A stretch of DNA of 64,000 nucleotides from Thermoplasmata archaeon (lineage in GTDB: Archaea; Thermoplasmatota; Thermoplasmata; Halarchaeoplasmatales; Halarchaeoplasmataceae). Below are positions 9,768-50,127 of this stretch, piece by piece (position 1 is the first letter of the stretch; every line of letters begins with the position of its first letter). Under the pieces are notes generated by a model. It was not told the origin of the DNA. It did not search any database and was given only the letters and a program-made list of their open reading frames with translations. The stretch lies in the NCBI GenBank assembly GCA_003552585.1, contig PUNK01000010.1:1-64000 (forward strand), read 5' to 3'. Both the position numbers and the translations under genes were made by a program.

Positions 9768-12700
9768 TTATAGTTCATCTCCAAATATGTCATCTTCCGC
9801 ATCTAGATCCTCTTCTTCGAAAGTGTCTTCCTCGATGGGTTCTTCATGATCGTACTCTTCTGATTTGCTCTTCTTCATCACCGAAAAGATTGCGATCAAT
9901 AGAGCGATTATCGCCAGTACAAGTGCTATTATACCAAAGATCCAAGCCATGCTGATATCATCGTCCTGTCTATCGTCTATCTCCTCTTGCTCTTCTATGA
10001 ATTCGCCTAAGTCTGCCTGTAACGCTGCTAAATCGGATTGTAAAGTTGCTATGTTAGCATCTGCCTCTGCAAGTGCTGCTTCAAGACCTGCGATGTCATC
10101 TTCAGCTGTAGATAGATCCATTTCCAAATCTTCTATACTTTCCTGTATCTCATCCAATAATTGTTGCATATCGGATAATTCTGACTCGAGCGCAAATATA
10201 TCGTTTTCGACAGCTGCTATGTCGGACTGTAATGTGCTTACTTGACCCTGTAGATCACTTACCGCTGAATCTAAAGCATCGATGTCATTTTGAAGATTAC
10301 TGATCAGAGTATGGATATTATCTATCTCTTCGCCCAATTCATCTAATTCTGTCCAGAGGTCTTGTATATCAGGCAGATAAAGTGCATATACAGTCATTTC
10401 TGCTGTATTTCCTTGTTCATCTTCAGAAACTACCCTGAATATATTTATTCCATCGATGAGAGTGGTATGATACACAAAACTGCCATCATCACCAACGGGG
10501 ACTTCTTCGTTGTTTATCCATATTTGTACACCGGGGTCGGTCAACCCTTCGATAGTGAAGTCATGGTCAAAGGTTAGTTCTTCAACTCCGTTCGAAGGTG
10601 TGATTATAGAGAATTCGGGATCCATCGTATCGACTTCAAACACCACAGTTCTGGTATACATATTGCCATGACCATCTGTACCTCTAACCTGAACTACATG
10701 TGTCCCATCTTGTAGACCTATAAAGGTATAATCTTTAGAGGTCCCTACATAATCCCAGTCACCATAGTTAATCCTGATTTCATAGGTCATATCCATTAAA
10801 TATCCATAGTCTTCCCATTCCACCGTAACTTGATTTATGTAGAACACTTCTCCGTCCTGAGGTGAAGTAATCTCGAATGCTTCTGCAGGTGGGCTAACAA
10901 ATATTGTTATCATCTCTGTATCCCAGTTACCTTCAGCATCGCTTACCAGAAGTGTTACCTCGTAGATTCCCTGGTATGGGAAGTAATATCCTAAGGTTTC
11001 CCCGTACAAAATTTCTTCATATCCCTCTGCCGCATCTGATACTCCTTCTATATGCCACGTCCAATTAACAACTTCAACGTTATCTGTGGAGCCTGACCCA
11101 TCTAATGTGAACTCTTCTCCAACTCGAGTACTACCCGATTTACCTGCATCTGCAACTGGGTCTTCAGTATCGATAGCGTATATCTCCAAAGTATCGCTGT
11201 CGTAATTCCCTGCCTCGTCGTATACCGTTAGTGTAACATCGTAGTACAGAGCATATTCCAGCGTGTAATTGACTATTCCACCATATAATATGGTCTCGTC
11301 ACCCATTGGATCTTCGATCGTCCACGTATAATTAACAATGCCTACATTATCTGTAGAAGCTGTACCATTGAGTTTGATAGTATCCCCCTGCCAGGCTTCT
11401 ATATCTTCTCCAGCATAAGCCTCCGGCGGTATGGTGTCGATCAAATGGAATCTCCATCCCATTGGATCATATTCTATTCCAACAGATACGAACTCTACCG
11501 AGTTAGCCAGCAATTTTCTGGCTTCAGGAGTATAATCCTTTGTAGCCCATGATGAGCTGGTCTGTCCCATAGTAGATAATACTACTTCATTCTCTACTTC
11601 ATTAACAGCAAATCCATGACCACGAACAGTGCCATCTACTGATACATCTCCAACTATCTCGAAATTTTCATCGATGAAATAGTCGAACCAGAAACCTCTG
11701 TCAGCATCGTAAAGGTTGATAAGATCTCCTTCACTGCCAATGCCATGGAATATAGGGTGATCTTCAGTTATCAACATGTCGACTGGAGCACCTAATCCAA
11801 TATCACCATGAGGATTTACTGGGTCGCCTAAAGCCTCTTCTCTACAGATGAGTCCATCAGCATATCCTGATCCACCACCCCATGAATCCATTATCACAAG
11901 ACCATGCTCAGGAGTTACAGCATCAAAGAAGTCTATTGCTCTTTGGGTGTCCGGTGCGAAAGCAGTACCACTTATCCTTTGGACTACGATTGTATGATAA
12001 TTGTCTATATTGTCTATCAAGTCATAAAGACTCGTCTTTAGTACAATGTTATATTCAGCACCTAATTCTTCTTCTAATATGCTCACGAACACTTCACCGT
12101 CATGATCTGGTTCTGGCCCAGTATCTAAAACTGCTACGTTGACCCCACTACCAGTTGATAGTATTTCTATAGAGTCGGTGTCGTTTTCTACAGGGACAAG
12201 TACAAGTGCTTCAAGATGCCAAGCACCACCTATGCCATAATCTTCGTCGAGATCCTCCCAATCATCAGGGTCATGAGGATCATCGAAGTTGACATATTGT
12301 CCATCATCAACGAATGGCATCATACATCCAAATGGGAAATAGCCACTGCCAAAATCGTCTATTTCAAGTACTATCCAGTATTGACCAGGTGATTCGATAT
12401 ATGCATATTCTTCTAATGCAATTTCGACCCATCCCGCACCTGTTGGAACATAATCATCGGATGAAGCTAACCAGTCTCCCGGAGCACCATCTTCATCTTC
12501 AGCAACATGGGCACGGATATAATTTGCTGCTGGCTCCCAGTCGTAGTAAGCAATTTCACTCACATAACCATCAACTGCATCAGAAAGGTCTAATATCATA
12601 GCTCCGTACCATACACCTGGTGCTGTAGCTCCTACTGCATTATCAGGATCGGTGCGATGATCATGATCATACAACCATCGCCATTGTTCCTCAAACTCAC

Positions 12701-15700
12701 CAACAAACTCGAAGTGTGCGGTTACCTGTTTGTCACTATCCATAATTATAGTTATCTCTTCTTCGGTACCTTCGTAATCTCCGGTCCATTCTACGAAATA
12801 CCAGTCTTCTTCAGGTATAGCAGTTAATGTTACTTCATCACCTTCAACATACTCAACTTCCTCTGGATCGATTTCTACTGTTCCAAATCCCTCAACATCT
12901 ACAGTAAGAGAATATGAAGCTGGATTTATTCTGCCAACGTTATAGTCTTCATATGATGTGAGGACAAACCAGTAATTGTACTGCCCCATGTCCTCCTCAT
13001 CTAATATGTAATCTGCTTCTACTCTACCCTCGATAACACCGGAATGTTCTGCCAATATTTCTCTGGTCACACCATGATAAAATACAACGTTCAAAGGTTC
13101 TCCAGTAGGTGAATCAACATGAACTGATACTGTTTGTTCTAAGCCTTCAACCTCTACACCGTGCTCAGGTTCAGGATCGGTTGCTACAGGGATCGGTTGT
13201 TCTGCCACATAGTCTTCATTCATCTCCATGTTGCCTACTCTATCCACTGCTCTTACCACATAATGCCATCGTACTCCATCATTCGCTTTGCCTTCGTCTA
13301 AGTATATGTAACTTTCAGAACCATCTGCTATTATAGTATCGATCATGGTCGATTCATCCCAAGGACCATCAGATGAATCAGACCTGTAAATCACGTAATG
13401 AGTGGTATCATTTTCTCCAGCTCCATCATCTGGTGAAGCATACCATGTCAACTCGTTTGCATCAGCATTCCATACATCATCGTCCCAATCAACATGTAAA
13501 TTCTCTACAGGTTCTGGTGGAATAGCATTTATAGTCGCACTTGCTGTCTTCCATACGGGTTCAGGTACGTAAGTATGGAAAGTCCAGGTTTCAGACGTTG
13601 TTGTTTCATATCCATCAAAAGCTTCAACGTACCATTGGTAGGTCGAATTCGAGTCTAAGAACAGGAATTCTGCTTCTACTCTTGTATCTGATTCAACACC
13701 TTCTACTGTCACATTTTTAATTTCAATACTATCTTCATCTAAAAGATAGAATGTTACATCCATATCGTCCTCATTTGGATCAGAGACAGAAACATTCAAC
13801 ATAGGAGAATGTGTAACACCTTCTTGGCCGTCATAAGGGATCGGATCTGAAGGAGGATCTGGTGGATAATTGTAGTCTACAAATATCCTCTTAATGATAA
13901 CGGCATCGTTCGGATATTCTTCGTCTTCATGGAACGTTTCCAAAGTTACTAGGTAATCACTTGGAATTACATCTTCATCAGGTGTCCATTCATCGAATTC
14001 TAATTGTATAGATTCTGTAACATTCAAATGATCTACAATTACTTGAGAACTGTATTCTTCCTCAAGATATTCGTTTGTAACTGTTACATTGTCTATCTTC
14101 CAGAACTCACCAACTTCTGCTTCTTCAGTATAGAATTCCCAACCTATCATGACTTCTTCTTCTCCAGAGGCCCAACGTGTAATATCGTAAGAAATCTCGC
14201 CATCACCGATGTTCCTTCCGATTCGGCGGTAGGAATCACCACCATCTAAGGAGAGTAATAGATCCCTATCATTAGTACCTTCGTATTCGGATAAGAAATC
14301 TAAGAACACCCTATAAGTTCCTTCCGAACAATCGAATGCCTCGGTCCATAAAACGTCATTTTCAAAATCATCTATTGGGATTATCTGCATGAAGTCTCCA
14401 TATTCGTCAGACCAAGTATTATCGTTATCATCACGATCTTCAACAGTCCATCCAGGTGGTAGTCCGTCGGTGAAGTCTTCATCTAAGACGATTTCATCAA
14501 GTATCGGATCGATAGTCATTCCCACGGAAGTATTAGTTATGTTCTGGTTACCTAGATTTGTGACTGTGCCCAATACCTCCTGTTCATATTGATATACCGG
14601 TTCTACTGGTGAATCAATTGATGTAGCTTCTAGGTGATATATGATCGGTTTAACATAAACATTCTTCATCAATGTTGCATTATCGGGGTTGACATCTTCT
14701 GGGTGGTAAGCAGTTACGTTGAATTGGTAGCTACCCGCAACTGATGGGGTCCAATCTTCAAAATTTACCGTTATATTTTCTCCCACATCAAGGTCCACTG
14801 TTGTTTCATCAAAATATTCTGTTTCAAGGTAACCGGTCATTACATCATCTATGTACCAGTGGTTTAGATTCCAAGAGTCGCCTTCGAATTCGAACATGAC
14901 CTGTGTACCAGGACCGATATGATCCGTTATATCGACCTCGTATAGATCAGGGCCTACATCTCCTGTTACAGGATTGTCCCATGGCGTTATATCCTCCCAC
15001 TCGTCACCAGGCGTTGACCTAGCTAGCACCCTAGCATTGAAGGTGTCTGAAAAGTGATTGATATACGATCTGAATTCAAGTGTCAGCTCCTCGGCATCCT
15101 GTGTGTCAACTGCAAGTGTCTCAAGATAAGAATAATCTCCTTCTACAGCGGTCCAGCTCAGGTGTGCTTCCGGTGGCTCTCCTCCTGCATTGTCTGTGTT
15201 GGATTGGGTCCAATCATCGGTTTCCCAACCTGGTGGTGGGAATTCACCTGAGAAGTCCTCTATCACTCCGACTATCCTATCTCCCATCGCTGTAACTTCA
15301 AGATCTTCCACATCGTAATCACCGTAATTTGAAACGATCGCACTCACAGGTTGTGTTTCATTCCACACAATGGATTCCGGATAGATTATTTCATCTACAC
15401 CATAGTCATGCACATAATCTATAACTGTTACATATTCAACCTGATAATCGTTGGTCGGGTCTTCATCTCCATCTAGATTTGTAGTAATATTTACAATGTA
15501 TTCACCAACCTCTGAAGGATTCCACTCCTCAAATACAGCTGTTTTATTTTCTCCAGAATCTAGATCTATCGTGATCTCGTCGAAGTATTCTATGGAAAGA
15601 TAATAGATAGATACTTCGTGAATTCTCCAGTAATCAAAGCCACCAGTATCATAATCCGTCGCATTGAATACGATAGCTATCTGAACCTCTTCTTCACCGT

Positions 15701-18700
15701 CTGCGTAAGCTGATATATCATAATCACGGGGATCGTTGTCCGTACCATCAGGACGTATTTGTTCTATCAAATCCCAGGTAACTCCACCGTCTGAGCTGAT
15801 CATGATTCTTCCCTGTGAAGAACCAGAAACAGTACTGTTCCAGAAGTGGTGTTCCAATTCTAGACGTGTGTTAATAGCATCTGTAGCATCGATCATCGGA
15901 CTTATAAGCCACTCGTCCTGGAATGTATCACCTTCTCCTTCACACCTGGCAGTACCGTCACCAATATGTACGGCATGATGCCATGTGTTAGGTGACTCAG
16001 TCGTGTTAACTATGGTCCACTCATCAGGTATTTCTTCGGTAAAGTCTTCATAGAGAAGTTCGTTTACCTGATAGATACTAGCTTCTACTGGCACATCAAC
16101 CTCATCAAGGGTTCCAAAATTTTCTACCTCTGCTTCTACATCTTGTATATCATCTTCCATTATCGTTCCTATCGGTGAATATATCTCTGTAACTCCTACG
16201 TCGTGGATATCTAAAACAATTATGTTTTGTGTCTCATAATCGTTGGTCGGGTCTTCATCATCGGGCAAGTCTGTGGTGGCATTCATGAAGAATTCTCCCT
16301 CTCCTGAGGGGATCCAATCGTCGAATATTGCTGTCTTGGTCTCTCCCGCTTCAATGTCCAAAAAGATTTCGTCCTCGTACTCCTCAGCAAGATACATCAC
16401 AGAAACTTCATGGAGCCTCCAATAGTCAGATCCACCGGTATCATAATCTGTCGCATTGAAAACGAATGCTATCTGAACCTCCTCTTCACCGTCTGCATAA
16501 GTAGATATATCATAATCCCGAGGATCGTTGTCCGTACCATCGGGACGTATCTCTTCTAAGAGTTCCCAGCTATCTCCACCATCGGAACTGATCATGACCA
16601 TACCCGCAGATGCTCCAGAGAAAGAACTGTTGAAAAGGTGATGATCAAGAAGTAGCCTGGTTCCCGTTGCATCCGAAGCATCGATCATCGGACTTATAAG
16701 CCACTCGTCCTGGAATGTATCACCTTCTCCTTCACATCGTGCATGTCCATCAAAGGTAGTACGATGATGCCATGTGTTAGGTTCTTCAGTTGTGTTCTCT
16801 ATCGTCCAATCGTCCGGTATTTCTTCGGTAAAGTCTTCGTAAAGCAAATTAACTATCTCTTCTATAGTTACTTCCACTGGCACATCTATTTCATCATATG
16901 TGCCAAAGTTAGTCACTTCGACTTCCACCGGATGAGGACCGATGGTGTTTACCATTCCAGGAGGAGATAAAATATTAGATACCCCGACATCATGTAAATC
17001 TTCCACTATAATCTCCTGTGTCAAGTAATCGTTGGTCGGATCTTCATCTCCATCCAATAAGGTAGTTGAATTCATTAAGAATCTTCCTTCGCCGCTCGGG
17101 ATCCAATCGTCGAATACTGCTGTAGTATCATCCCCTGCATCCACATCCACCATAACGTCATCGAAATATTCCTCTTCTGGATAACCTAACGAAATGTCAT
17201 CGATAAACCATTGATTGATGTTGAATGAGTTTCCATCGAACGTCCAAGACATGTGGAAATCTTCAGAACCGACATTTTCAGTAATTTGAAGAGTGATTGT
17301 TTCTGGACCAACATCATCATCAGGTGATATAGACCATACCTCGTCCCAGGTTTCACCGTCAGCAGATGTTTCTACTCTAAGATCATAACCTCCAGCGTAA
17401 TCGTTTACAAAGTGTTTAAACGACAGGTCGATCTCACTGATATCCGATGTATCGATAGGAGGAGTATAGCACCTAAAGGTGTCTGTTGCAGAGGGAGACC
17501 AATTAAAGCGTAATTCAGGTGCCTCACCACCTGCATTGTTAGAATCCCATACACCCCAATTCGTGTGTGTCCTAGTCCAGTTATCAGGGAGATCTCCAGA
17601 GCTTATTCCCGAAAAATCTTCTTCAAACATAGTAATAATTTCATGTATGGTGGTTTCCACAGGTACATCCTGTTGATCAGCTGTACCGAAGTTATGTACT
17701 AATACCTCCACCGGATGAGGTCCTTCAGCATTTACATATTCCTCAGGAGATAGTATATCTATAACTCCAACATCATCAACAAGGTCATCTAGAATCTTCT
17801 CGAATTGTAAAGAAGGGCTTTCTACTACTGGTCCCGGATCCTCATCCAGGTACCAAGCTGTGATCACTGCATCATGTTCGACGTAAAGTGCTCCATCTAC
17901 GTCTGGATCCTCGGTAACGTCAATTTGACCCGTAAAGAAGCCTAAATTATCTTCATCCTCAACTAGTGTTACCCACTCTTCATCCAATTGAGTCCCATGT
18001 TCATCTACACTTGTGATATTGATTAGGTAAGTGCCTTCTCCCATCAAATCGTAATCTGCTAGTGATATCTCTACTGTATCTTCACCTCTATATTCGCTCC
18101 TATCAAGGGTTAATTCAGCATCCTTAGGGGGTACGTCAATATAGGGCACATTGTAAATCGATAGTGCATAATCCTGGTTAGCCTCTCCGTCGTTGTTGGC
18201 GTCTTCGGGAACGTTCGTGCCCATGACCCTTATGGTGTAAGTCCCTTCTTCCAAATCGTCTGGATGTATGAAAACGTTCTGTACGTTGTTCACATCATCC
18301 CAACCATCTTCGTTGAAATCGAAATCTGACATGGCATCAGTGTTAGGATAGCTGAAACCACTATCACTTAGACCATCGCCGGTATAATCGAAGGCATTAC
18401 CTCGGAAAATATCGCCACCGGGAGCTTCAACTTCCAGATCAAGATTGTTCTTAAGGGTCGGAGTTCCTCCTTCACTGTCTCCTGCCATAGCGTGTTTATC
18501 GGTCCATGTCAGGGTTATCTTGAGAGGTTCGTCTTCGTCCTCGTAATTTATCTCAAATACATCTATATCACCAGTAGTTAAAAGTGATTCCTGATCATAG
18601 AACTCGAAGCCGATTGGATCGTCAGTTGGATAATGTAATTTTGATATGTCCGGTACACCCCAACCTTCGTCTCTATTGGGCACGTGACCCACGGTATCGC

Positions 18701-20597
18701 CCACCTCCGGGTCGAGTTCGTTGGCCGTGTTTATCAATATGGCCTTGACCATAGCCGGACTGGGTCTCACCTCATAATTATCCTCGTACCACTCCACTAT
18801 GATGGTCGCCGCACCAGCTACCAAAGGATTACCGAAAGAGGTACCACTAGCCGCGACATAAGTATCGGGTTCATCCATAGGCGTATTCTGTGATATCACA
18901 CTCTCGGACGGTGCGATGACATCGGGTTTGATACGATTGTCTTCAGTCCAGCCTCGTGAACTTGCACCATACATGTTCTCGGGGTTCGGATAACCCAAGT
19001 CAGGGTTGAAAGGTTGATTACCACCGATGGTTATCACGTTCTTTGCGTTGGCTGGACTACCTATCTCCTGTTCATAACCTCCTCTTCCACCATCGTTACC
19101 TGCAGATGTTGTTATCACCATTGGACGATTCTCGTCGGTATCTCTATCTGCATCTCTAACTGCCTGGTCAAAAATTTCGTCAGAGTCACTATAAGACCCC
19201 ATCGTTCCTGCACCCCATGAATTACTGTGAATATAAGCATCGGACATCTGCGCCGGTACCTCCACGATCTCATAATACGGTGGATCAAGGAATCCCCCAG
19301 CATCGTCAAATATCTTGGTCGCAAACATTTCAGACTCGTAGGCCAGGCCTTGTCCCATATAGTACGGCATCGTACCATCTACGAATTCATCCCATGTAGC
19401 TCCCGTTCCTGCGTACGTATCACCTGCGATCAATCCAGTACAAGCCGTTCCGTGATAATGACCGTCGGCCCAATAATCAGGATCCGGTCCAAAACCATAT
19501 CCACCTATCACTCTTCCAGTGAAGTCTGAAACGCCTGCATCCCCGACAGTACCATCACCTATACCTGTATCAGCAGTGGTTATGGTGATCCCAGCACCAC
19601 TATATCCCAATTGATTTATATATGCACCAAAATCGCCGTGCAATCTATACGGTATCTCAGGATCTCCTTCTCTTGGAGGTGGTACTAGATCCTCATTGAG
19701 CGGATATTCATCGTCCATGAACCATAGTCCACCGCCTATCAACTGTATATCCATCTCAGCGTGGAGTTCAGGTTCTATGTATGGTGAAATGAAATAAACA
19801 TCGTTAATCATGGCTAAGTCCTTCAACTGGTCCATAGATTCCAACAGAGTTACTATCCTATATCCCATATCTCCATAATCTTCTGTGACCAATATTGGGA
19901 AACGTGTGTCTATCCTAATCAAAGAAGAACGGTCGAAACCTGGTCTCAATCTGATGTTTACAGGTAAACCCATATCAAGAGCGTCCTCAAGACTACTGTG
20001 GAGTTTGTATTCAGGTTGGTAGATCCCTACCCAATCAACGAAGAACAAGTCCTCTACTTCAGCAGCTATTTCAGGAGTCATCACTACCTCGTAAGCATAG
20101 TTCGGTACGTAGTTTACTATCTGAACTCCTTCGCTCTCTAGGGTCGCTCTCCATAACGGATTTACCGGCCCCAGCATGTGTATCAAGTAAAGTCCTTCTT
20201 CTCCTGACTCGTATCCATCGATCCTCAGAGAAGGATCTAGCTCCGGTTCGCCCTTGTCGACCTCGATGAGATGTCCTTTCACGTGTATCTCGTTCCTTCC
20301 CGGCAGTGTATTCACTCTCAGCCCCTTCTGCTCTAATTGGTAAACCGATACACCGTCCAAAGCTACCAACGCATTCTCACCATATCTATCGATGATCTCT
20401 ACACCCATTCGATTTAATATAGAGATATCTCTTACGTTCACACGTTCAATCATCACTATATCATGGCTAGAAGTAACTTCAAATCTTCTTCCTGCATCCT
20501 CTTGTGCAAAAGCTCCACCAGCAACTACCAATGTAGACAATACAAGTATGACTGCAGATAAAAATGCCTCATATTTTCTTATTTTTTCTATTTTCAT
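9768..20597 (-). CDS. P1: giant stalked surface subtilisin (S8, Kp43-like)
   Basis: A cell-surface serine protease of about 3,609 residues. Layout: signal peptide 1-31 (AFA|QE); propeptide about 35-310; S8 domain with Asp343 (TADTG), His382 (HGTA), oxyanion Asn in SAGND and Ser587 (SGTSFGNP); a Kp43-type jelly roll (about 660-816); another beta domain; five CARDB-plus-choice-of-anchor-J units (about 936-2239); Ig/FN3 domains (2243-2470); an InlB-type B repeat (2566-2636); a ThuA/GATase-like Rossmann domain (2817-3046); two PKD domains (3056-3233); two Ig-like domains; a coiled coil 3409-3546; TM 3549-3572; an acidic tail. It should digest protein outside the cell, tethered by the stalk. ATG 20597 is preferred over GTG 20609 because GTGAAAATATGAAA also precedes the P2 start. 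Divergent from R1. Catalytic residues are intact; the order is seen, domain names are by motif. Confidence 0.9.
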   Translation of the reverse strand: MKIEKIRKYEAFLSAVILVLSTLVVAGGAFAQEDAGRRFEVTSSHDIVMIERVNVRDISILNRMGVEIIDRYGENALVALDGVSVYQLEQKGLRVNTLPGRNEIHVKGHLIEVDKGEPELDPSLRIDGYESGEEGLYLIHMLGPVNPLWRATLESEGVQIVNYVPNYAYEVVMTPEIAAEVEDLFFVDWVGIYQPEYKLHSSLEDALDMGLPVNIRLRPGFDRSSLIRIDTRFPILVTEDYGDMGYRIVTLLESMDQLKDLAMINDVYFISPYIEPELHAEMDIQLIGGGLWFMDDEYPLNEDLVPPPREGDPEIPYRLHGDFGAYINQLGYSGAGITITTADTGIGDGTVGDAGVSDFTGRVIGGYGFGPDPDYWADGHYHGTACTGLIAGDTYAGTGATWDEFVDGTMPYYMGQGLAYESEMFATKIFDDAGGFLDPPYYEIVEVPAQMSDAYIHSNSWGAGTMGSYSDSDEIFDQAVRDADRDTDENRPMVITTSAGNDGGRGGYEQEIGSPANAKNVITIGGNQPFNPDLGYPNPENMYGASSRGWTEDNRIKPDVIAPSESVISQNTPMDEPDTYVAASGTSFGNPLVAGAATIIVEWYEDNYEVRPSPAMVKAILINTANELDPEVGDTVGHVPNRDEGWGVPDISKLHYPTDDPIGFEFYDQESLLTTGDIDVFEINYEDEDEPLKITLTWTDKHAMAGDSEGGTPTLKNNLDLEVEAPGGDIFRGNAFDYTGDGLSDSGFSYPNTDAMSDFDFNEDGWDDVNNVQNVFIHPDDLEEGTYTIRVMGTNVPEDANNDGEANQDYALSIYNVPYIDVPPKDAELTLDRSEYRGEDTVEISLADYDLMGEGTYLINITSVDEHGTQLDEEWVTLVEDEDNLGFFTGQIDVTEDPDVDGALYVEHDAVITAWYLDEDPGPVVESPSLQFEKILDDLVDDVGVIDILSPEEYVNAEGPHPVEVLVHNFGTADQQDVPVETTIHEIITMFEEDFSGISSGDLPDNWTRTHTNWGVWDSNNAGGEAPELRFNWSPSATDTFRCYTPPIDTSDISEIDLSFKHFVNDYAGGYDLRVETSADGETWDEVWSISPDDDVGPETITLQITENVGSEDFHMSWTFDGNSFNINQWFIDDISLGYPEEEYFDDVMVDVDAGDDTTAVFDDWIPSGEGRFLMNSTTLLDGDEDPTNDYLTQEIIVEDLHDVGVSNILSPPGMVNTIGPHPVEVEVTNFGTYDEIDVPVEVTIEEIVNLLYEDFTEEIPDDWTIENTTEEPNTWHHRTTFDGHARCEGEGDTFQDEWLISPMIDASDATGTRLLLDHHLFNSSFSGASAGMVMISSDGGDSWELLEEIRPDGTDNDPRDYDISTYADGEEEVQIAFVFNATDYDTGGSDYWRLHEVSVMYLAEEYEDEIFLDIEAGETKTAIFDDWIPSGEGEFFMNATTDLPDDEDPTNDYETQNIIVLDIHDVGVTEIYSPIGTIMEDDIQDVEAEVENFGTLDEVDVPVEASIYQVNELLYEDFTEEIPDEWTIVNTTESPNTWHHAVHIGDGTARCEGEGDTFQDEWLISPMIDATDAINTRLELEHHFWNSTVSGSSQGRIMISSDGGVTWDLIEQIRPDGTDNDPRDYDISAYADGEEEVQIAIVFNATDYDTGGFDYWRIHEVSIYYLSIEYFDEITIDLDSGENKTAVFEEWNPSEVGEYIVNITTNLDGDEDPTNDYQVEYVTVIDYVHDYGVDEIIYPESIVWNETQPVSAIVSNYGDYDVEDLEVTAMGDRIVGVIEDFSGEFPPPGWETDDWTQSNTDNAGGEPPEAHLSWTAVEGDYSYLETLAVDTQDAEELTLEFRSYINHFSDTFNARVLARSTPGDEWEDITPWDNPVTGDVGPDLYEVDITDHIGPGTQVMFEFEGDSWNLNHWYIDDVMTGYLETEYFDETTVDLDVGENITVNFEDWTPSVAGSYQFNVTAYHPEDVNPDNATLMKNVYVKPIIYHLEATSIDSPVEPVYQYEQEVLGTVTNLGNQNITNTSVGMTIDPILDEIVLDEDFTDGLPPGWTVEDRDDNDNTWSDEYGDFMQIIPIDDFENDVLWTEAFDCSEGTYRVFLDFLSEYEGTNDRDLLLSLDGGDSYRRIGRNIGDGEISYDITRWASGEEEVMIGWEFYTEEAEVGEFWKIDNVTVTNEYLEEEYSSQVIVDHLNVTESIQLEFDEWTPDEDVIPSDYLVTLETFHEDEEYPNDAVIIKRIFVDYNYPPDPPSDPIPYDGQEGVTHSPMLNVSVSDPNEDDMDVTFYLLDEDSIEIKNVTVEGVESDTRVEAEFLFLDSNSTYQWYVEAFDGYETTTSETWTFHTYVPEPVWKTASATINAIPPEPVENLHVDWDDDVWNADANELTWYASPDDGAGENDTTHYVIYRSDSSDGPWDESTMIDTIIADGSESYIYLDEGKANDGVRWHYVVRAVDRVGNMEMNEDYVAEQPIPVATDPEPEHGVEVEGLEQTVSVHVDSPTGEPLNVVFYHGVTREILAEHSGVIEGRVEADYILDEEDMGQYNYWFVLTSYEDYNVGRINPASYSLTVDVEGFGTVEIDPEEVEYVEGDEVTLTAIPEEDWYFVEWTGDYEGTEEEITIIMDSDKQVTAHFEFVGEFEEQWRWLYDHDHRTDPDNAVGATAPGVWYGAMILDLSDAVDGYVSEIAYYDWEPAANYIRAHVAEDEDGAPGDWLASSDDYVPTGAGWVEIALEEYAYIESPGQYWIVLEIDDFGSGYFPFGCMMPFVDDGQYVNFDDPHDPDDWEDLDEDYGIGGAWHLEALVLVPVENDTDSIEILSTGSGVNVAVLDTGPEPDHDGEVFVSILEEELGAEYNIVLKTSLYDLIDNIDNYHTIVVQRISGTAFAPDTQRAIDFFDAVTPEHGLVIMDSWGGGSGYADGLICREEALGDPVNPHGDIGLGAPVDMLITEDHPIFHGIGSEGDLINLYDADRGFWFDYFIDENFEIVGDVSVDGTVRGHGFAVNEVENEVVLSTMGQTSSSWATKDYTPEARKLLANSVEFVSVGIEYDPMGWRFHLIDTIPPEAYAGEDIEAWQGDTIKLNGTASTDNVGIVNYTWTIEDPMGDETILYGGIVNYTLEYALYYDVTLTVYDEAGNYDSDTLEIYAIDTEDPVADAGKSGSTRVGEEFTLDGSGSTDNVEVVNWTWHIEGVSDAAEGYEEILYGETLGYYFPYQGIYEVTLLVSDAEGNWDTEMITIFVSPPAEAFEITSPQDGEVFYINQVTVEWEDYGYLMDMTYEIRINYGDWDYVGTSKDYTFIGLQDGTHVVQVRGTDGHGNMYTRTVVFEVDTMDPEFSIITPSNGVEELTFDHDFTIEGLTDPGVQIWINNEEVPVGDDGSFVYHTTLIDGINIFRVVSEDEQGNTAEMTVYALYLPDIQDLWTELDELGEEIDNIHTLISNLQNDIDALDSAVSDLQGQVSTLQSDIAAVENDIFALESELSDMQQLLDEIQESIEDLEMDLSTAEDDIAGLEAALAEADANIATLQSDLAALQADLGEFIEEQEEIDDRQDDDISMAWIFGIIALVLAIIALLIAIFSVMKKSKSEEYDHEEPIEEDTFEEEDLDAEDDIFGDEL
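13880..17790 (-). repeat. Five tandem CARDB/choice-of-anchor-J units in P1
   Basis: Five consecutive units of about 770-790 bp inside P1. Each begins with a (H)DVGV-x-x-I-x-SP type CARDB strand and continues to an EDF...P-x-x-W choice-of-anchor-J (MAM-like) sandwich with a DEWLISP or comparable core. Unit starts are near 17770, 16990, 16200, 15410 and 14640. Units 2 and 3 share a 60-nt identical stretch at 16677-16736 and 15885-15944, offset exactly 792 bp (264 codons), indicating recent internal duplication or conversion. Confidence 0.8.
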
Positions 20598-20932
20598 ATT
20601 TTCACTCACATTTTAAAACCAGTGATACGGCATAGTTCCTAATTATTGACTGCCGTGGAAAGTAAGTCATTCATGCTCGTTTTGTAGTCAGTTTGCTTCA
20701 AGCTAGTCTATCACCACATCACTGATTTCCTACAGTGGTATGTACTTGTCAATATATTGAGATTAGGGGAACATGTGCGGATGTGCAGGACATCCCTATA
20801 AATTTAAATACATTATAGATGGGGTTTGGATTATCGACACGTTATCTCACTCCTGGGATTATATATATTTATTTAAACATATTAATTAGTCAAAAGGAAA
20901 ATGTCTAAATAAACGGTACAACTATATTACTA
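20598..20932. other. Divergent P1/R1 control region
   Basis: A 335-bp intergenic region from which P1 (minus) and R1 (plus) are transcribed apart. It contains a perfect dyad GGATGT-N5-ACATCC at 20779-20795 next to a TATA-like CTATAAATTTAAATA (20796-20810), and a TAAATAAA box (20906-20913) about 24 nt before the R1 ATG. It also holds GATTATCGA at 20829-20837, a 9-mer that recurs in the P2/R2 spacer at 50153-50161. No RNA gene or reading frame of substance is seen. Confidence 0.5.
20779..20795. promoter_or_regulatory. Candidate operator dyad upstream of R1
   Basis: Inverted repeat GGATGT GCAGG ACATCC, arms of six bases with no mismatch, directly beside a TATA-like box. Its size and place fit a site for a dimeric winged-helix regulator such as R1 itself. 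This is inference from symmetry only. Confidence 0.35.
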
Positions 20933-23900
20933 ATGGAGATGAGGTTAAATAACGCAAGATACAGGATCTTGTTACATCTACTAGGACAAAAGGATGTGAC
21001 GGATTACTACGAAGTACCCTATCGTTTATGCCAAAATGGGATCGCAGAAGCTGTCAATCTATCCCGAAGCAGAGCAAGTAAAATAATTAGAGAGTTGATA
21101 AAAAAAGGATGGGTAAAAGAGGCTACGAAGCGTGTCGTTGGTTTGAAACGTAGAAGAAAGACTTATTCACTAACTAATGAAGGAATAAAAAATGCCAAAG
21201 ATATTAAAGATAAACTCGAAAGGACAGATGTTATTGTGAAAACAAAATCATCTGAGCATGAGATTAAGTTAAAAGAAATAAATTCTTATATAGATTCTAA
21301 AGACCCTCTCCTTGTAGCATTAAACAGAGTTAACGAAGAAGATATAATAGATATAACTCAACCTGAAAGACAAACCCAGGACATATTTGCGGGTAGAAAA
21401 GATGAGATACAATATCTCTCTGAAATACTCGGACGAGTAAAAAACGAAGGAGTCCATACAGTTTTAATAAAAGGCCGAGCAGGAGTCGGTAAAACCAGAT
21501 TGATCAATGAGTTTCGTCAGGTGGCAATTTCGGAAGGTTTTGGATTTCTGACAGGCAAAGGCCACTATGATACCTCAGAACCATATCTTCCTTTCAAAGA
21601 GGCATTTCAAAGATTCGATAGAAAAGAATCAAAGCTATTGAAATTTTCTACAGATTTAGAAAGAGAGAAAGATATAAAAAACGAGTACAGGATAAAGAGC
21701 AGAAGATATCTCGTCTTTTCTAAGTCTACTAAAAATATTCGAAAGTTGGCCGAAGAAAGACCCATGGTTATTTTCATAGACGATTTCCAATGGGTAGATA
21801 AAGCTTCATCAACGTTCTTTCACTATCTTGCAAAGAAATTGAAAGGACTCCCTATACTATTGATAGGGGCTTATAGGCCAGAGGATATAAGAAGAGATCA
21901 TCACATAAAAGAAGTGCTCCAGAGAATGGGTAGAGAACAGCTTTATGAAGTGTTAGAGCTTGAACCACTGAAAATTGTACATACTCAGAAGATCGTACAG
22001 GGGTTAATAGGAAAAATGGACATACCTGAAGATTTTGTAAAATTGATACATGAAACCTCGGAAGGAAATCCATTGTTTGCCAAGGAATTCGTTAAAATGA
22101 TGTTAGAAGAAGGAATTTTAGAGCCAAATAACAACAGATATCCTTCAAAAAATGATGACTTTGAGCTTCCAAAAATGGTCAATGACATAATCGAACGAAG
22201 AATAAATAGATTAGACAAAGAGAATCTGAAGATACTTCGAGTCGGAAGCATTATAGGTGAAAGGGTCCCATTTACTGTCTTACAAGATTTAACTAAAATG
22301 GACGATTTTGAACTATTAGAACATATAGACATACTTACAGGTTCCAGCATATGGGAGTCTGAACCCCAAGAGGACTATTTCACCTTTGCTCACGGATTGA
22401 TACAACTTACAGTTTACGAAGGGATCCCTGAACCACTTAAAAAAAGTCTTCACATTAAGATTGCGAACTCACTAAAAGAATTGTTTCAAGATGATTTGGA
22501 ATATTACTACTCTGATATTGCATTTCACTATAGAAGAGGGGGGAATTTCTCAAAAGAAGTGTCATATTTAATGAAAGCTGGAGAGAGAGCTGACCAGGTA
22601 TATGCCCACGAGGATGCACTTGAGATGTATAAAGAAGCATTGGAACAAGCTAGAAAAGCTAACCTAGATAAAGAGAGATGGGAGATAATGGAAAGGTTGG
22701 GAGATGTTTATACGGTAACGGGAAGGTATGACTCTAGTCTTGAGCATTATAAAAAGATACCTTTGGAAAAACTAGACGGAGGATCTCGACAGAGAATCTA
22801 CAGGAAGAAAGCTAGCGTTTTTGAGAGGGTAGGAGACTTCGACAAATCTTTAGAATTCATAAGCAGGGGGTTATCCGAAAATAAACAATTTACTATAGAA
22901 AGCTGTAGATTGTTATGTAAGAAGGGGATCGTTATGATGAGAAGGGGACAATATGACGACGCCGAAAGCAATCTGCTAAAGGCTTTGGCCCTTTGTGATG
23001 ATTTTTACGATGAAAAAACCAGTGCAGATGTACACCAAAATCTTGGAATAGTTTATCTTTACAAAGGTGAACACGAGAAATCCATAGAATATCTTGAAAG
23101 TGCTTTAAAATCGTATGGCGATATGGGGAACCTAATAGGAAAGGCATCCACCCTTGATAGTCTAGGTCACATCTACCTGAATACAGGAGATCTAGATGAT
23201 GCTTTGGAATATTTTAAAGAGGGATATGATATAATTAAAAAGACCGGTGATAAAAGAGCTATATCCTTTACTCTAAATGACATAGGTACAATTTATTCAA
23301 AAAGAGGTGAAATAGAAAAAGCCATCGATTGTTATGAAGAATGTCACAAGATATGGAAGGCGATAGGTGATAAACGAGGGATCGGTATCTATCTACAAAA
23401 CATAGGAGAATGCTATCTAAAAATAGGTGAACTGAGCTCAGCTCGTGAATGTCACAATAAAGGTATAAAGATATTCGATGAGATCAACTCTAAAAAAAGA
23501 GCGGCCATCTGTTCGACCAACATGGGAAAAATGTACTCACTAAAAGGAGAATTGGACGAGGCAAGGAACTACTTCGAAAGGAGTTTAGAAACTTGTGAAC
23601 AGATTGGATACAAATATCAAAAAACATTAAATCTGTTAGGATTGGGAGAGATCTATATTCAAAAAGAAGAAGTAGAAAAAGCGATTGAAAAAGTGAGCGA
23701 AGCATTGGAAATCTCTAATATTATCGCATTTAAAATTGGTGAAGGAATCAGCCGTAGAACACTAGGTATGGCTTATAGGAAGAATAAAGAGTGGAAAAGG
23801 GCTAAAAAGGAGTTTGAGATCGGTAAAGAAATATTATACAGTGCTAAAGATAAAAGCGAACTCGGAAAATTACTATATCAATATGCTCTACTCTGGAAGG

Positions 23901-24013
23901 ATATGGAAGAGGATGAAAAGTTCAAAGAAAATATGAAAAAAGCACGCTCAATGTTTGACGATGTAGGGATGAAACTTTGGCTAGAAGAGTGTGAAAGGGA
24001 GTTAGAAGGGTAA
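20933..24013 (+). CDS. R1: winged-helix / STAND ATPase / TPR regulator
   Basis: A 1,026-residue cytoplasmic protein laid out like a MalT-type signal-transducing ATPase. Residues about 1-75 form a winged helix (GIAEAVNLSRSRASKIIRELIKKG as recognition region, in two overlapping pieces). Next come a linker, an AAA_16/STAND NTPase with Walker A GRAGVGKT (Lys187) and Walker B FIDDFQW (Asp283-284), a sensor-like GAYRPED, then about ten TPR repeats from about 590 to the end. Such proteins bind an inducer or partner through the repeats, oligomerise with ATP and act on a promoter. It is divergent from P1, so control of P1 and of itself is the natural hypothesis. The ATG start is supported by TAAATAAA at 20906-20913. 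It is paralogous along its length to R2. Confidence 0.85.
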   Translation: MEMRLNNARYRILLHLLGQKDVTDYYEVPYRLCQNGIAEAVNLSRSRASKIIRELIKKGWVKEATKRVVGLKRRRKTYSLTNEGIKNAKDIKDKLERTDVIVKTKSSEHEIKLKEINSYIDSKDPLLVALNRVNEEDIIDITQPERQTQDIFAGRKDEIQYLSEILGRVKNEGVHTVLIKGRAGVGKTRLINEFRQVAISEGFGFLTGKGHYDTSEPYLPFKEAFQRFDRKESKLLKFSTDLEREKDIKNEYRIKSRRYLVFSKSTKNIRKLAEERPMVIFIDDFQWVDKASSTFFHYLAKKLKGLPILLIGAYRPEDIRRDHHIKEVLQRMGREQLYEVLELEPLKIVHTQKIVQGLIGKMDIPEDFVKLIHETSEGNPLFAKEFVKMMLEEGILEPNNNRYPSKNDDFELPKMVNDIIERRINRLDKENLKILRVGSIIGERVPFTVLQDLTKMDDFELLEHIDILTGSSIWESEPQEDYFTFAHGLIQLTVYEGIPEPLKKSLHIKIANSLKELFQDDLEYYYSDIAFHYRRGGNFSKEVSYLMKAGERADQVYAHEDALEMYKEALEQARKANLDKERWEIMERLGDVYTVTGRYDSSLEHYKKIPLEKLDGGSRQRIYRKKASVFERVGDFDKSLEFISRGLSENKQFTIESCRLLCKKGIVMMRRGQYDDAESNLLKALALCDDFYDEKTSADVHQNLGIVYLYKGEHEKSIEYLESALKSYGDMGNLIGKASTLDSLGHIYLNTGDLDDALEYFKEGYDIIKKTGDKRAISFTLNDIGTIYSKRGEIEKAIDCYEECHKIWKAIGDKRGIGIYLQNIGECYLKIGELSSARECHNKGIKIFDEINSKKRAAICSTNMGKMYSLKGELDEARNYFERSLETCEQIGYKYQKTLNLLGLGEIYIQKEEVEKAIEKVSEALEISNIIAFKIGEGISRRTLGMAYRKNKEWKRAKKEFEIGKEILYSAKDKSELGKLLYQYALLWKDMEEDEKFKENMKKARSMFDDVGMKLWLEECERELEG

Positions 24014-48000: not shown

Positions 48001-49963
48001 GCTCATCAAGAGGATACACCAGTTTAGATATATCGGGCACACCCCAACCTTCATCCTGATTAGGTACATGACCCCTAGTGTCTCCAACTTCAGGATCCAA
48101 TTCATTTGCAGTGTTTACCAATATCGATTTTACCATAGCAGGACTAGGTTTTTCGTCGTATCTCTCTTCGTACCATTCAACAATTATCGTTGCGGCACCG
48201 GCTACAAGAGGATTACCGAATGAAGTTCCACTAGCCGCTATGTATGTATCAGGTTCATCTAGAGGTGTATTCTGTGAAATCACACTCTCGGAGGGTGCGA
48301 TCACATCGGGCTTGATACGATTGTCTTCCGTCCAACCTCTAGAGCTCCCATCGAACATGTTTTCAGGATTTTCATAGCCCAAACCAGGGTTGTATGGTTG
48401 ATTACCACCGATGGTTATCACGTTCTTGGCGTTAGCAGGACTGCCTATCTCCTGTTCATAACCTCCTCTTCCACCATCGTTACCTGCAGATGTTGTTATC
48501 ACCATCGGACGATTCTCGTCGGTATCTCTATCTGCATCTCTAACTGCCTGGTCAAAAATTTCGTCAGAGTCACTATAAGACCCCATCGTTCCTGCACCCC
48601 AAGAGTTACTGTGGATATAGGCATCAGATTCTTGTGCAGGTATCTCGACTATCGGATAGTATTCTGTAGGCATGAAGCCTCCTGCATCATCGAAAATCTT
48701 GGTAGCAAATATTTCTGATTCATAAGCTAATCCCTGTCCCATATAATAGTCCATGTCTCCATCTTCGAAATCGGACCATATAGCTCCAGTGCCGTCATGC
48801 GTATCCCCGACAATCAAACCAGTACACGCTGTTCCGTGATAGTGACCATCGGCCCAGTTGGTTTCATCGGCACCGAAGCCGTATCCTCCTATTACTCTAC
48901 CTGTGAAGTCTGAAACGCCTGCATCCCCGACAGTTCCATCGCCTACTCCTGTATCTGCAGTGGTTATTGTTACTCCATCTCCAGAGTACCCTAATTGGTT
49001 TATATATGCACCGTAATCACCGTGTAGTCTGTAAGGTTCTTGAGGATCTCCTTCTCTGGGAGGAGGAGTTAAATCGTCCCTTGTATCATATTCATCATCC
49101 ATGAACCATTGACCACCTCCTATCAACTGTATGTCCATCTCAGCGTGGAGTTCCGGTTCAACATACGGGGAAATGAAGTAAACATCGTTCATCATCGCCA
49201 GGTCCTCGAGCTCACTCTCAGACTCAACGTCTAGTACGAGCCTCATACCGTTTTCACGAAGATCTTCAGCAGCTACCACATCAAAATCGGACTCTATAAG
49301 GGCCATATTATCTATATCAAACCCTGGTCTCAGTTTAACATTGATGGGCATATCCATATCTAAGGCCTCGTCCAACCGGGAATGCAACTTGTATTCGGGC
49401 TGGTATATCCCGACCCAATCGACGAAGAAGAAATCTTCTACCTCATCGGCAAGCTCAGGAGTCGTCACTACTTCATAGGCATAGTTCGGCACGTAGTTGA
49501 TTATCTCTACTCCTGCCTCTTCTAAATTACTTCTCCATTCGGGATTGACCGGACCCAGCATGTGGACTATGTAAATACCCTCTTCGCCTTCTCCATAAGC
49601 TTCTATCTGAAGATCAGGATCCAGTTCCGGTTCGCCTTCAGTTATATCTATATGATGTCCTTTTACAGATATCTCTGTTCGACCAGGAAGGGTATTGACC
49701 CGTAGTCCTTTTTGTTCCAGTATAGGGATAGTCTCTTCTTCCACCTCTATTAGAACATTGCTGCCGTAAGTATCGAGTACCTTCAGGTCCATCTGTTCCA
49801 TCAATTGTATTTCTTCTGTATCAGCACGTTCGATTAGTACTATATCGCCTTCAAAATCATCAGGTAAAAAAGCACCTGCTGCTACGGCGAATACTGACAT
49901 CACCAGTACCAGTGCACAGAAAAATACTAAAAATCGTTCTAATTTGCTTTTCTTTTCTTTCAT
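39068..49963 (-). CDS. P2: giant stalked surface subtilisin, paralogue of P1
   Basis: A 3,631-residue paralogue of P1 with the same plan: signal peptide (about 1-31), propeptide, S8 domain with Asp337, His376 and Ser581 plus SAGND, a Kp43-like jelly roll, five CARDB/choice-of-anchor-J units (about 955-2278), Ig/FN3 domains, an InlB-type B repeat (about 2602-2672), a ThuA/GATase-like domain (about 2855-3082), two PKD domains, Ig-like domains, a coiled coil about 3449-3573, TM 3583-3606 and an acidic tail. All catalytic residues are intact. It should be an active, membrane-tethered extracellular protease; the acidic, Asn-Thr-rich array is probably glycosylated. The ATG lies about 28 nt downstream of TATAAAAA (49988-49995 on the plus strand). 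Divergent from R2. It differs from P1 in an extended first repeat unit (about 865 bp). Confidence 0.9.
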   Translation of the reverse strand: MKEKKSKLERFLVFFCALVLVMSVFAVAAGAFLPDDFEGDIVLIERADTEEIQLMEQMDLKVLDTYGSNVLIEVEEETIPILEQKGLRVNTLPGRTEISVKGHHIDITEGEPELDPDLQIEAYGEGEEGIYIVHMLGPVNPEWRSNLEEAGVEIINYVPNYAYEVVTTPELADEVEDFFFVDWVGIYQPEYKLHSRLDEALDMDMPINVKLRPGFDIDNMALIESDFDVVAAEDLRENGMRLVLDVESESELEDLAMMNDVYFISPYVEPELHAEMDIQLIGGGQWFMDDEYDTRDDLTPPPREGDPQEPYRLHGDYGAYINQLGYSGDGVTITTADTGVGDGTVGDAGVSDFTGRVIGGYGFGADETNWADGHYHGTACTGLIVGDTHDGTGAIWSDFEDGDMDYYMGQGLAYESEIFATKIFDDAGGFMPTEYYPIVEIPAQESDAYIHSNSWGAGTMGSYSDSDEIFDQAVRDADRDTDENRPMVITTSAGNDGGRGGYEQEIGSPANAKNVITIGGNQPYNPGLGYENPENMFDGSSRGWTEDNRIKPDVIAPSESVISQNTPLDEPDTYIAASGTSFGNPLVAGAATIIVEWYEERYDEKPSPAMVKSILVNTANELDPEVGDTRGHVPNQDEGWGVPDISKLVYPLDEPMGFQLEDQEVLIETGDVEEYEISPVNEDEPLKITLSYTDEHAMDGDSTGGTPTLKNNLDLEVEAPSGDIYRGNAFDNSGDGMSDSGFSYPNTDAMTDFDYNGDGWDDVNNLQNVFIHPDDIESGNYIVRVIGTDVPEDANNDGDANQDYALTAYNVPDDIIDIVTPDKEGVIEIEREEYAGNDLVNITLTDIILEGEGTHEINVASMDADGNELENMTVELIEDEDNLGFFFGTVQLTEDENEDEALYVEHDGEIIAWYWDADPGHPDDLENDEETDARTEEESLDKTRENNDRILQDLDNDVGVIEIISPDEMVNTDIQNVEITVYNFGEEDQTDVPVEATIEEMAFYDDVRMDKGYTDDVSEDYGVDWAMRSHGSTIGEYSWDFGDGDYGSDPYMSWLISPEIELTDDDDTDIILTFDHWREFYDWDETIRDGGNLRISTEGDDGPWDLIHPEEGYDGVIYEDNNNPIGGEEGWGYQLREWETATFDLNDYAGETIHLRWTAGIDDFIGNREGWRIDNIQMTGGDVVFEDDTAIDIASGEEITVTLDDWTPGEEGGYFMNATTDLDGDEDPTNDYKQRTILVTDLIDVGVDEIVEPPEMVNSVDAHPIESLVKNYGTLDQTDVPVITTINEDAIALYEDFEEEIPDDWTIDNTTEEPATWHHSIDMAYVDGVAGIDQDEWLISPSLDMTDAAHASLQIDHDFYTSGFSGDSWGRVHVSNDGGDTWELLDEWIPEESASGLYEYDISDYADGEEDVQVAFQWDSTDDPDNGDWDDWEIYEVTIGYMEEVYYDETTVDVDAQQSVLVEFEDWEPDETGTYFMYSTTDLEDDEIPGNDAESQYIIVTDIHDVGVSEILSPVGNVMIDETHDVEAEIENFGTFDEEDVPVYAEMLKILYLIEEDFHHQIPDEWTIESSSDETWKHGWDDWADEGMALVEDDEYLDQEEWLISPVFNASDALETTLYLDQDFNDGFYGEPYGEILISTDSGDTWDEIDNYTDDAGEMEYDISDYADGEEEVQIAFVFETESHESFSASDYWEIYEISVTSVDEEYEDEITIDVDAQRTIEASFESWDPSDVGEYELTITTDLEGDEDPDNDYQIETIYVRAPEANIGVDDIISPEHEVWEETQTVQAEITNYGDFDVMDVPVEATAEYVDGFIEDFSGDFPPEGWETDDWTQSDSNDAGGTPPEAYLHWFDVTDDYSYLKSPAVDTTEVEELTLEFYSYLDHNQDDLTAMVQVRSDPDESWIDVTPWDNPVSSSLPPNHYEIDITDHLGPGTQVIFEYYGSTLELNGWYVNDVILGERHVDYVDEIEVDLDLDETKTVFFEDWTPSQAGDYVFNVTALHPDEDDPESATMEKFVEVVPIIYDLEATSIDEPTEPIFDFETRDVIGTVTNVGNQNITDAPVVMTIEPIIEGTPIDEDFSEDPLEDGWHVEDRDGNDNTWEWNEDEELMEITPIDDHEHDILWTEIADCTEGEHRVLLEFYSYLGGGYDQNERTLLISTDQGASYRRISSNITDGEITFDITQWASEEEDVMIGWEIYSEEVEEDEYWAIDDVKIITEHTEEEYESELIVDELNVSEEIQLQFDEWEPLQYPMDYLITMETQLDLDENLENVETTERVFVEEHFDPEAVDPNPYDGEEDVTHSPVLNVTVNDPNGYDMNVTFYLFDDDDNEIGNKTHEGVPSGEIAWRQFLLIEVDSTFSWYVEVDDGVTTVQSEIWEFHTYEPEGRYVTDSAAINADPPGQVDNLDLDWDADVWDVTGNELNWDASPDDGAGHNDTEYYVIYRAEEDTGPWDETTMIDYVEAEGLESYTYIDEGMADDGEQWHYIVRAVDRVGNMEMNEDAVSELPLPMATDPEPEDGEWLEGLEQDLSAYITNPTDEIIDVEFYDGLTRELIDSYQVTEDGRVETTWELEEENMAQDNYWFVITSYEDYNFGSINPTEYTLTVDISGQGTVEVDPEEESYIEGSEVELEAIPDDQWNFVEWTGDYEGTDEEITITMESDMEITANFEYLGELEGEWRWLYDADHRPDQADNALSSAEPQVWYGGIILDLSDDVGGYISEVAYFDYDETANYVQAHVAEEDNGAPGDWLASSDEHTPTGGETWVELELTEDVAIEDPGEYWIVLEIDDPSEDNLFPFGTINPNVEDGQWSNFGDPHDPADWTDLVDLGIFTAWGLEAYVEVPVSSDHITSDRELMDQDINVAVVDEENWQENEVEYKLEEYLPDGYNVDTLEADELLDEMHDYDTFVIQRFGSDELAEDFLDELEGHQGVVYLDTHQGATAEAYSDGVYRLHNIRNDPEFRDSESLGTESYQTMEILESHPIFDGIGSEGDIVPLFDGTTNWGSWFDDYSGDILAEKDYGAGYGGPAVGVCDDNNEVLLPAKGIGFFGEADDPGWTEEANQMFANAVEFVAGEVEFDPIGWHFHLIDDVEPHAEFHIEEDPDYYQGDAITLNATASYNPPSDNSGIENYTWNIVDPTGEEYIFYGPIVEKTLEYALYYDITLTVYDAYGNYASTWDEVYSIDTEDPIADAGTSDQTRVGEEYILDGSDSTDNVEVVNWTWYIEGVSEEAEGYEETLYGETVGYHFPYVGTYDILLEVSDAEGNSDTDMISIIVNPPAETFEIISPEDGEIFYEDLVIVEWEDYGYMQDMTYEIRLNYGDWDYVGTDTDYTFINLEDGTYVAQVRATDSMGNTYTRTVTFEVDTIDPEVQIITPSNGIEELTFEEEFVIEGMTDPGVQVWINGEEVPVGEDGSFTYDTTLIDGLNIFRVVSEDDQENTDEMTVYALYLPDIQDLWTEVDAIGDDIYDIQTAIAGLEDNIDSLESSLDDLQGQINSIQSDLDAARDDIEGLQTELGIVQDNVDDLELDMDEAQEDIDELENALAEAEGIIATLQSELTDLELDLEDFEQEQEEIDAEQDDDISMAWILGTVALILAILAIIIAIFTAMKKGESEEFDDEETFEEDPFDEEDL
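43130..47100 (-). repeat. Five tandem CARDB/choice-of-anchor-J units in P2
   Basis: Units start near 47090, 46225, 45455, 44660 and 43885, each opening with a DVGV-x-E/D-I type strand (YDLEATSI in the last) and holding one EDF...W anchor-J-like sandwich. The first is longer, about 865 bp, with a different internal segment (YSWDFGDGDYGSDPYMSWL). They correspond one to one with the P1 array. Confidence 0.75.
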
Positions 49964-49987
49964 ATTTTCACATCATCTTTGCACGTG

Positions 49988-49995
49988 TTTTTATA
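49988..49995 (-). promoter_or_regulatory. TATA box of P2
   Basis: TATAAAAA on the minus strand, centred about 28 nt before the P2 ATG, which implies a very short leader or none. Confidence 0.5.
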
Positions 49996-50015
49996 TCCTA
50001 ATATACAATTTACAT

Positions 50016-50127
50016 ATGGATTTGCCTTACTCCAGCTAAAGGATTTAGATGTTATTAGTGGTCTAAACAGTCTTTGAAGTTCTAGTTCTATTGGCGAAAA
50101 ATCTTTTGATGTTTTAGGCAAATCCAT
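50016..50127. promoter_or_regulatory. Long-spaced perfect inverted repeat between P2 and R2
   Basis: ATGGATTTGCCT at 50016-50027 and its exact reverse complement AGGCAAATCCAT at 50116-50127, 88 nt apart, between the two divergent promoters. Twelve matching bases in this small spacer are unlikely by chance. Two half-sites on opposite strands could be bound by R2 and joined by looping to control both genes. GATTATCGA (50153-50161), also in the P1/R1 spacer, lies just beyond. Confidence 0.45.

Follow-up and report, generated by a model that had tools for sequence, protein, structure and literature searches.

Giant surface proteases of a Thermoplasmata archaeon are encoded beside STAND-type regulators that probably activate them through an ACATGT promoter box

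Based on the gene neighbourhoods and promoters compared in this study, R1 and R2 are probably STAND transcription activators, each encoded beside a giant surface protease (P1 and P2, respectively) that it controls through a palindromic ACATGT box upstream of the protease TATA element. The switch probably turns on the neighbouring protease, because paired proteases, unlike their unpaired relatives, share the box at a fixed promoter distance. Sequence comparison establishes the predicted domain anatomy, the conserved pairing and the tie of the box to gene adjacency, with constant spacing to the protease TATA. The window considered here, that is, the whole stretch of 64,000 nucleotides analysed, belongs to a 1.84-Mb draft genome in 76 contigs (91% complete). 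Relatives found by sequence are the Thermoplasmata MAGs B1Sed10_34, T1Sed10_113R1 and T1Sed10_119m (4 loci only, in a scan of named genomes), and the archaeal origin proposed in the preliminary description of this DNA was correct; B1Sed10 and T1Sed are high-salinity datasets of a soda-lake sediment study (PMC6146748). The main comparison set consisted of 15 other genomes of the same family, in which R1 homologues were checked against matches to the P1 head. A second set, a thin sample, covered about 25 genomes from other families of the class.

The four open reading frames of the preliminary description were confirmed, coordinates included, by the ORF listing (Table 1), as was the divergent P/R arrangement with like orientation at both places. 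P1 and P2 comprise around 3600 residues each and have the same layout of a signal-peptide-like hydrophobic N-terminus, a prodomain, an intact S8 domain, a region of repeats and PKD/Ig-like domains, a coiled coil, one apparent C-terminal transmembrane segment and an acidic tail. Pfam identifies Peptidase_S8, PKD, InlB-B repeat and Glucodextran_B in addition to the coiled coil, and PF00082 spans all 288 positions in both proteins, with the D, H and S motifs of the Asp-His-Ser triad visible. Inspection by eye places an A-x-A-type site at the end of the hydrophobic N-terminus and a charged tail after the transmembrane-like segment at the C-terminus. The two proteases resemble each other over their full length, as had been claimed, being colinear and 57% identical; at the DNA level, the matching stretches are only about 64-81% identical, and the duplication is therefore not recent. 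The interior of P1 (window 15417-16928) contains repeats with a period of about 790 nt that are 70-73% identical, and the protease body therefore seems to expand by internal duplication. A third S8 surface protease of 1623 aa (window 55714-60585, minus strand) has a Glucodextran_B/coiled-coil C-terminal part as in P1 and P2 and adjoins a macro-domain gene; an R neighbour and an upstream ACATGT are both absent there. Yet another S8 gene of the host genome (G000:C45:102684-103592) has an in-frame TAG in the S8 region and could be a pseudogene or reflect an assembly error. Elsewhere in the window (36441-37283) lies a gene for RNA polymerase subunit D with a 4Fe-4S ferredoxin-like domain.

Table 1. 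Coordinates of the protease and regulator genes, their domains and the promoter elements in the window
Feature	Position	Strand	Remarks
P1, giant secreted S8 protease, 3613 aa	9768..20609	-	ORF; GTG start, alternative ATG at 20597
P1 C-terminal transmembrane segment, after coiled-coil stalk	9879..9953	-	approximate, read from sequence
P1 S8 catalytic domain	18657..19598	-	D in ADTG, H in HGT and S in GTSFGNP all present
P1/R1 divergent intergenic region	20610..20932	.	323 bp
ACATGT box, proposed R1 operator	20771..20776	.	P1 TATA candidate CAATATATTG (20750-20759), imperfect, 11-12 nt on towards P1
R1, 1026 aa; wHTH residues ~8-96; AAA_16/STAND NOD, NBD residues 152-311; TPR sensor ~540-1020	20933..24013	+	
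P2, P1 paralogue, 3631 aa	39068..49963	-	ORF; 57% identity to P1, full length
P2 S8 catalytic domain	48041..48982	-	Pfam
P2/R2 divergent intergenic region	49964..50223	.	260 bp
ACACATGTGT palindrome, P2 promoter	50176..50185	.	ACATGT core 50178-50183; TATATA 10 nt on, P2 strand
R2, 1068 aa; wHTH-AAA_16-TPR regulator of a clade other than that of R1	50224..53430	+	

R1 and R2 can be aligned from end to end and have the common layout of wHTH, AAA_16 and TPR attributed to them, at an identity of only 31-33%. Pfam assigns AAA_16 and many TPRs to both proteins (TPR_12, E=6e-61 and 2e-72); the N-terminal HTH is recognized as HTH_24 in R1 (residues 31-62, E=1.1e-5) and located in R2 by alignment to R1. 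The HTH region is conserved across all 16 R homologues aligned, R2 included, and invariant in the 16 sequences are Walker A (G181..GKT188), Walker B (D283-D284) and a GNPLF motif (378-382). In the structure model of R1 (mean pLDDT 87.6), TPR helical hairpins occupy residues 539-1025, and helical and strand elements, the GNPLF included, follow the NBD at residues 366-485. The top Foldseek match of the model among solved structures is 6mfv, which is PH0952 (E 9.8e-15), with 814 columns aligned at a low TM-score (0.22/0.32), which probably reflects differences in superhelix length and domain placement. R1 and R2 thus display features of the STAND/TPR class, namely a P-loop NBD with Walker A and B, a C-terminal TPR sensor and a predicted terminal DNA-binding domain. 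As read from sequence and model, R is a PH0952/MalT-like STAND ATPase with a TPR sensor, and this kind of protein is already known.

STAND proteins are relatives of the NLR/APAF1-type switches, and MalT is among the best-studied members that regulate transcription. MalT (the E. coli maltose activator) and AfsR resemble R in being ATP-switched STAND activators with a TPR-type sensor and a DNA-binding domain. The TPR region is where AfsR and R can be aligned, and R scores far below the cut-offs for both MalT and AfsR. In MalT, the DNA-binding domain is C-terminal and of LuxR type, and the regulon consists of operons, whereas R has an N-terminal wHTH and is found beside one surface protease. The closer archaeal likeness is PH0952 of Pyrococcus horikoshii (PDB 6MFV), for which the accessible portion of PMC6468293 gives a predicted N-terminal DNA-binding effector, a NOD and a TPR sensor; R1 is longer and has more TPRs. 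A protease partner or an operator of PH0952 is not described in that portion of PMC6468293.

The search of related genomes for R genes divergent from S8 proteases, as the preliminary description had proposed, found recurrent pairs. The ten closest R1 homologues outside the host genome, drawn from the 15 same-family genomes, are 39-51% identical to R1, and nine of them are divergent from a P-family S8 gene (G005:C66, C48 and C96; G014:C97, twice, C37, C6, C15 and C82), the tenth (G014:C11) being arranged tail-to-tail with an S8 gene. Outside the R1 clade, R lies directly upstream of P at three loci (G004:C39, G010:C68, G006:C13) and divergent from an S8 gene at four (G011:C54, G011:C59, G006:C152, G011:C46). 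Given that a genome has between none and about 20 P-type genes, that is, around 1% of the genes or less, adjacency by chance would be of the order of 1% per neighbour. A dedicated protease-regulator pairing, recurring in relatives far above chance, is supported by these gene orders. For the other families of the class, R/P adjacency was not seen among the matches listed in the thin sample of roughly 25 genomes. In the tail-to-tail pairs (L072 in G005:C92; L052/L068 in G014:C11), it is the 3' end of P that adjoins R, and ACATGT is missing from the P promoter. A TnpB-like gene (OrfB_IS605/Cas12f1-like TNB; L043, 535-1722) near the G005:C66 protease may point to a means by which such loci could be moved.

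The divergent intergenic regions of the R1 clade, read on the protease strand, have in common an ACATGT-(10 nt)-TATA arrangement, several of them within a longer TACATGTAnnAGTGAGATTTATA. With up to 2 mismatches allowed, the long motif has 4 matches in 16 whole genomes, all 4 in P/R intergenic regions. Within the 64-kb window there is a single strict match, located at the P2 promoter, where 0.12 would be expected. As a general operator the long motif TATAAATCTCACTNNTACATGT was rejected: it holds only in part of the R1 clade, and elsewhere just ACATGT and the spacing are retained. ACATATG (50012-50018) was likewise dropped as the P2 operator, because ACACATGTGT at 50176 has exact spacing to TATATA. 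In the hand tally, 14 of the 18 S8 genes that have R either divergent or immediately upstream carry ACATGT in the promoter, counts that are not independent trials because the loci are related by descent. Among about 60 same-family S8 genes lacking a neighbouring R, where neighbours were taken from the R match lists and a very diverged R could thus escape, only 2 have ACATGT within 250 bp upstream, compared to about 3 expected by chance from the background frequency of 14 per 64 kb. The 19 promoter boxes align with an ACATGT-to-TATA spacing of 10 nt, kept to within about 1 nt, P1 fitting less well, and the spacing to the P TATA is the same whether R is divergent or upstream. A site conserved at a fixed place upstream of BRE/TATA, as characterizes upstream activator sites, is therefore found at ~10 nt in 14/18 paired promoters. 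The box is also present at G006:C152 and G011:C46. The four paired loci without an exact box are G014:C15 (AAATGT in the right place) and G014:C82a (lost), both divergent pairs of the R1 clade, and G011:C54 and G011:C59, the last having a different palindrome, TGCAAATTTGCA, at about the box position. Other palindromes occur near the neighbour's TATA in further R/neighbour intergenic regions (L136, 3740-3775, CCGATATTtccAATATCGG; L058, 2490-2505, TGCAAATTTGCA), and these sequences give the impression of an operator specific to each R subfamily.

How R might work from the box can be outlined by analogy. R would combine a wHTH effector, a nucleotide-operated NOD switch and a TPR sensor. An inducer bound on the TPR superhelix, perhaps a peptide or else a protein that reports on protease or peptide status, would convert R from an ADP-bound resting monomer into an ATP-bound oligomer, as in MalT and PH0952. 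The winged helix of active R would then bind ACATGT about 10 nt upstream of the protease TATA, abutting the BRE, and bound R would help to load TBP/TFB at the protease promoter. The typical binding site of an archaeal activator lies immediately upstream of the BRE, from where TBP or TFB is recruited (PMC5512572, PMC4158304), and the box, abutting the predicted BRE, has the position of such a site. Ptr2, EarA and TrmBL1 are archaeal activators whose site just upstream of BRE/TATA is like that proposed for R (PMC5512572, PMC4158304), differing from R in that they belong to other regulator families and are without the STAND switch. With the box abutting the BRE and a STAND switch present in R, a MalT-like activator is therefore the economical reading. 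The opposite sign of control, in which R, bound at this box, keeps TFB from the BRE and so represses the neighbouring protease, appears improbable, if the least so of the alternatives: at only ~10 nt from the TATA, the box could overlap the footprint of BRE-bound TFB, and archaeal repressors also can act at the promoter (PMC5512572), yet sites upstream of BRE/TATA are typically activator sites, those downstream accompanying repression (PMC4158304), and the characterized MalT-type STAND transcription regulators activate.

A box adjoining the BRE could instead mark a core-promoter class of surface proteases, served for example by an alternative TFB and unrelated to R. Two S8 genes that have no visible R neighbour carry the box (G010:C103, with perfect spacing, and G004:C12, at a contig edge), and the box is therefore not strictly a feature of cis pairs; from its occurrence there, possible control of some unpaired proteases in trans is suggested. 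The explanation by promoter class is nonetheless a still weaker candidate than repression, for about 58 of the 60 unpaired S8 genes are without the box, as against its presence in 14 of the 18 paired ones, and a NosD gene (G014:C82b), encoding a surface protein that is no protease and divergent from R, has the box in the form of ACACATGTGT. As a genome-wide regulon finder, ACATGT-N10-TTTATA was not enriched (8 matches compared to 14 in the reversed control), and the relaxed pattern in the host genome gave 5 matches compared to 3 in the control. A gene encoding a Propeptide_C25 (gingipain-type) domain has one ACATGT-10-TTTATA (L156, G006:C103, 896-917) about 43 nt upstream. A further secreted peptidase may therefore be served by the box, or the match may be due to chance, because the pattern is not enriched genome-wide over the control.

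Divergent regulators often autoregulate, and with the box located in the shared region, it could be the autoregulatory site of the R gene, the protease being a bystander. The geometry makes this very unlikely: R's own TATA is anywhere from ~25 to more than 100 nt away from the box, whereas the distance to the P TATA is nearly constant, and at the three loci with R and P in tandem the box is located between the genes, downstream of R and upstream of P.

The preliminary description had considered the whole protease-plus-regulator unit to be duplicated, and had named scattered R genes without proteases, or disagreement of regulator and protease relationships, as grounds for regarding the pairing as incidental. 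Bit scores and identities, from which congruence was judged, bear out duplication of the protease (P1/P2, colinear) and not of the regulator. The best match of R1 is the G005:C66 regulator (51%), compared to only 32% for R2, and the best-scoring relatives of R2 are G012:C70 (35%), G011:C59 (41%) and G014:C82b (39%), with 31-35% to the R1 clade; R1 and R2 belong to different clades and are not each other's closest paralogues, as duplication of the unit would have both genes be. In its head, P2 shares 81% identity with the G005:C66 protease and 74% with P1, and R2 is only 32% identical to the G005:C66 regulator. The similarity of the G005:C66 protease to P2 is confined to the head, parts of the middle and the C-terminal stalk, P1 and P2 being colinear throughout. 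G014:C97a is the reverse case, its R being one of the closest to R1 (50%) and its P one of the more distant (381 bits). Because regulator and protease relationships disagree, duplication of a whole unit is not supported; regulators and proteases have therefore recombined, and exchange of partners between them is the reading of these sequence relationships. R genes are also scattered. There are about 10 R-type loci in the host genome, including a tandem of three, and up to dozens in relatives, many of them beside unrelated genes (a hydroxyacid dehydrogenase/aminotransferase run, glycosyltransferases, cation efflux, PAP2).

Both grounds for an incidental pairing were thus encountered, and numerous R genes without protease neighbours, together with relationships that disagree, are what two expanded families that became neighbours by chance would give. 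Incidental pairing is still unlikely because the operator box tracks R adjacency; moreover, although P genes make up ~1% or less, 10 of the 10 closest R1 relatives adjoin one, and adjacency is seen at several places in a single genome and with more than one orientation. Chance is accordingly given even less weight than autoregulation. STAND ATPases that have protease partners or effectors are known from defence, and weak matches to PADLOC models (TPR, PDC-S27, subtilase/IetS) recall them, but an anti-phage module was dropped as scarcely conceivable, the matches being partial and covering only TPR, P-loop or S8 parts, R having a predicted DNA-binding domain, and P being placed outside the cell by its signal peptide and membrane anchor as read from sequence.

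With activation of the neighbouring protease as the preferred reading, the extent of R control deserves comment. R genes are found divergent from other surface-type proteins as well: at G014:C82b the partner is a NosD beta-helix protein with coiled coil, an S8 gene coming next, and at G012:C144 it is a CARDB/InlB-repeat protein; surface proteins may more generally be under R control. At the former (L071, G014:C82, 3587-7249), the NosD surface protein has a coiled-coil stalk, and the intergenic ACACATGTGT is the same as in P2/R2. A more far-reaching proposal, which we offer tentatively and consider doubtful as a whole, is that surface proteolysis throughout the lineage is governed by many STAND-protease circuits that work in parallel and exchange partners, with a separate regulator and box variant in each, the TPRs sensing peptides or the state of surface proteins and feeding back on the neighbouring protease. 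Peptide feedback on the protease is an attractive idea; like feedback from the state of the surface protease, also suggested in the preliminary description, it is unsupported by sequence.

Regarding novelty, the types of the R protein and of the S8 protease are known, and the conserved circuit and its operator appear to be undescribed. Halolysins of haloarchaea (e.g., SptA) are like P in being secreted S8 proteases of halophilic archaea, with cis elements described at the promoter in the accessible sections of PMC6085418; a STAND partner is unmentioned in those sections, and P1 and P2 are distinguished by their ~3600 aa and membrane anchor. A description of the R/P pairing or of the ACATGT box was not found in the open-licence literature searched. 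The earlier statement that no system of this form had been described consequently holds for the pairing and the box within that literature, and not for the kind of protein that R represents, which is a PH0952-like STAND protein (PMC6468293, as far as accessible).

Lastly, our study has implications for the STAND regulators of archaea and for the organisms that use them. For archaeal TPR-STAND regulators such as PH0952, the structure is available and the target is not given in the accessible portion of PMC6468293. The more than a dozen loci assembled here give a putative target gene together with a candidate operator in fixed geometry, and target, site and mode of activation are therefore directly testable. 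They represent regulation of the MalT type applied to an unusual target, with unusually good comparative evidence, and suggest how sediment Thermoplasmata endowed with many extracellular peptidases may decide which of them to express.
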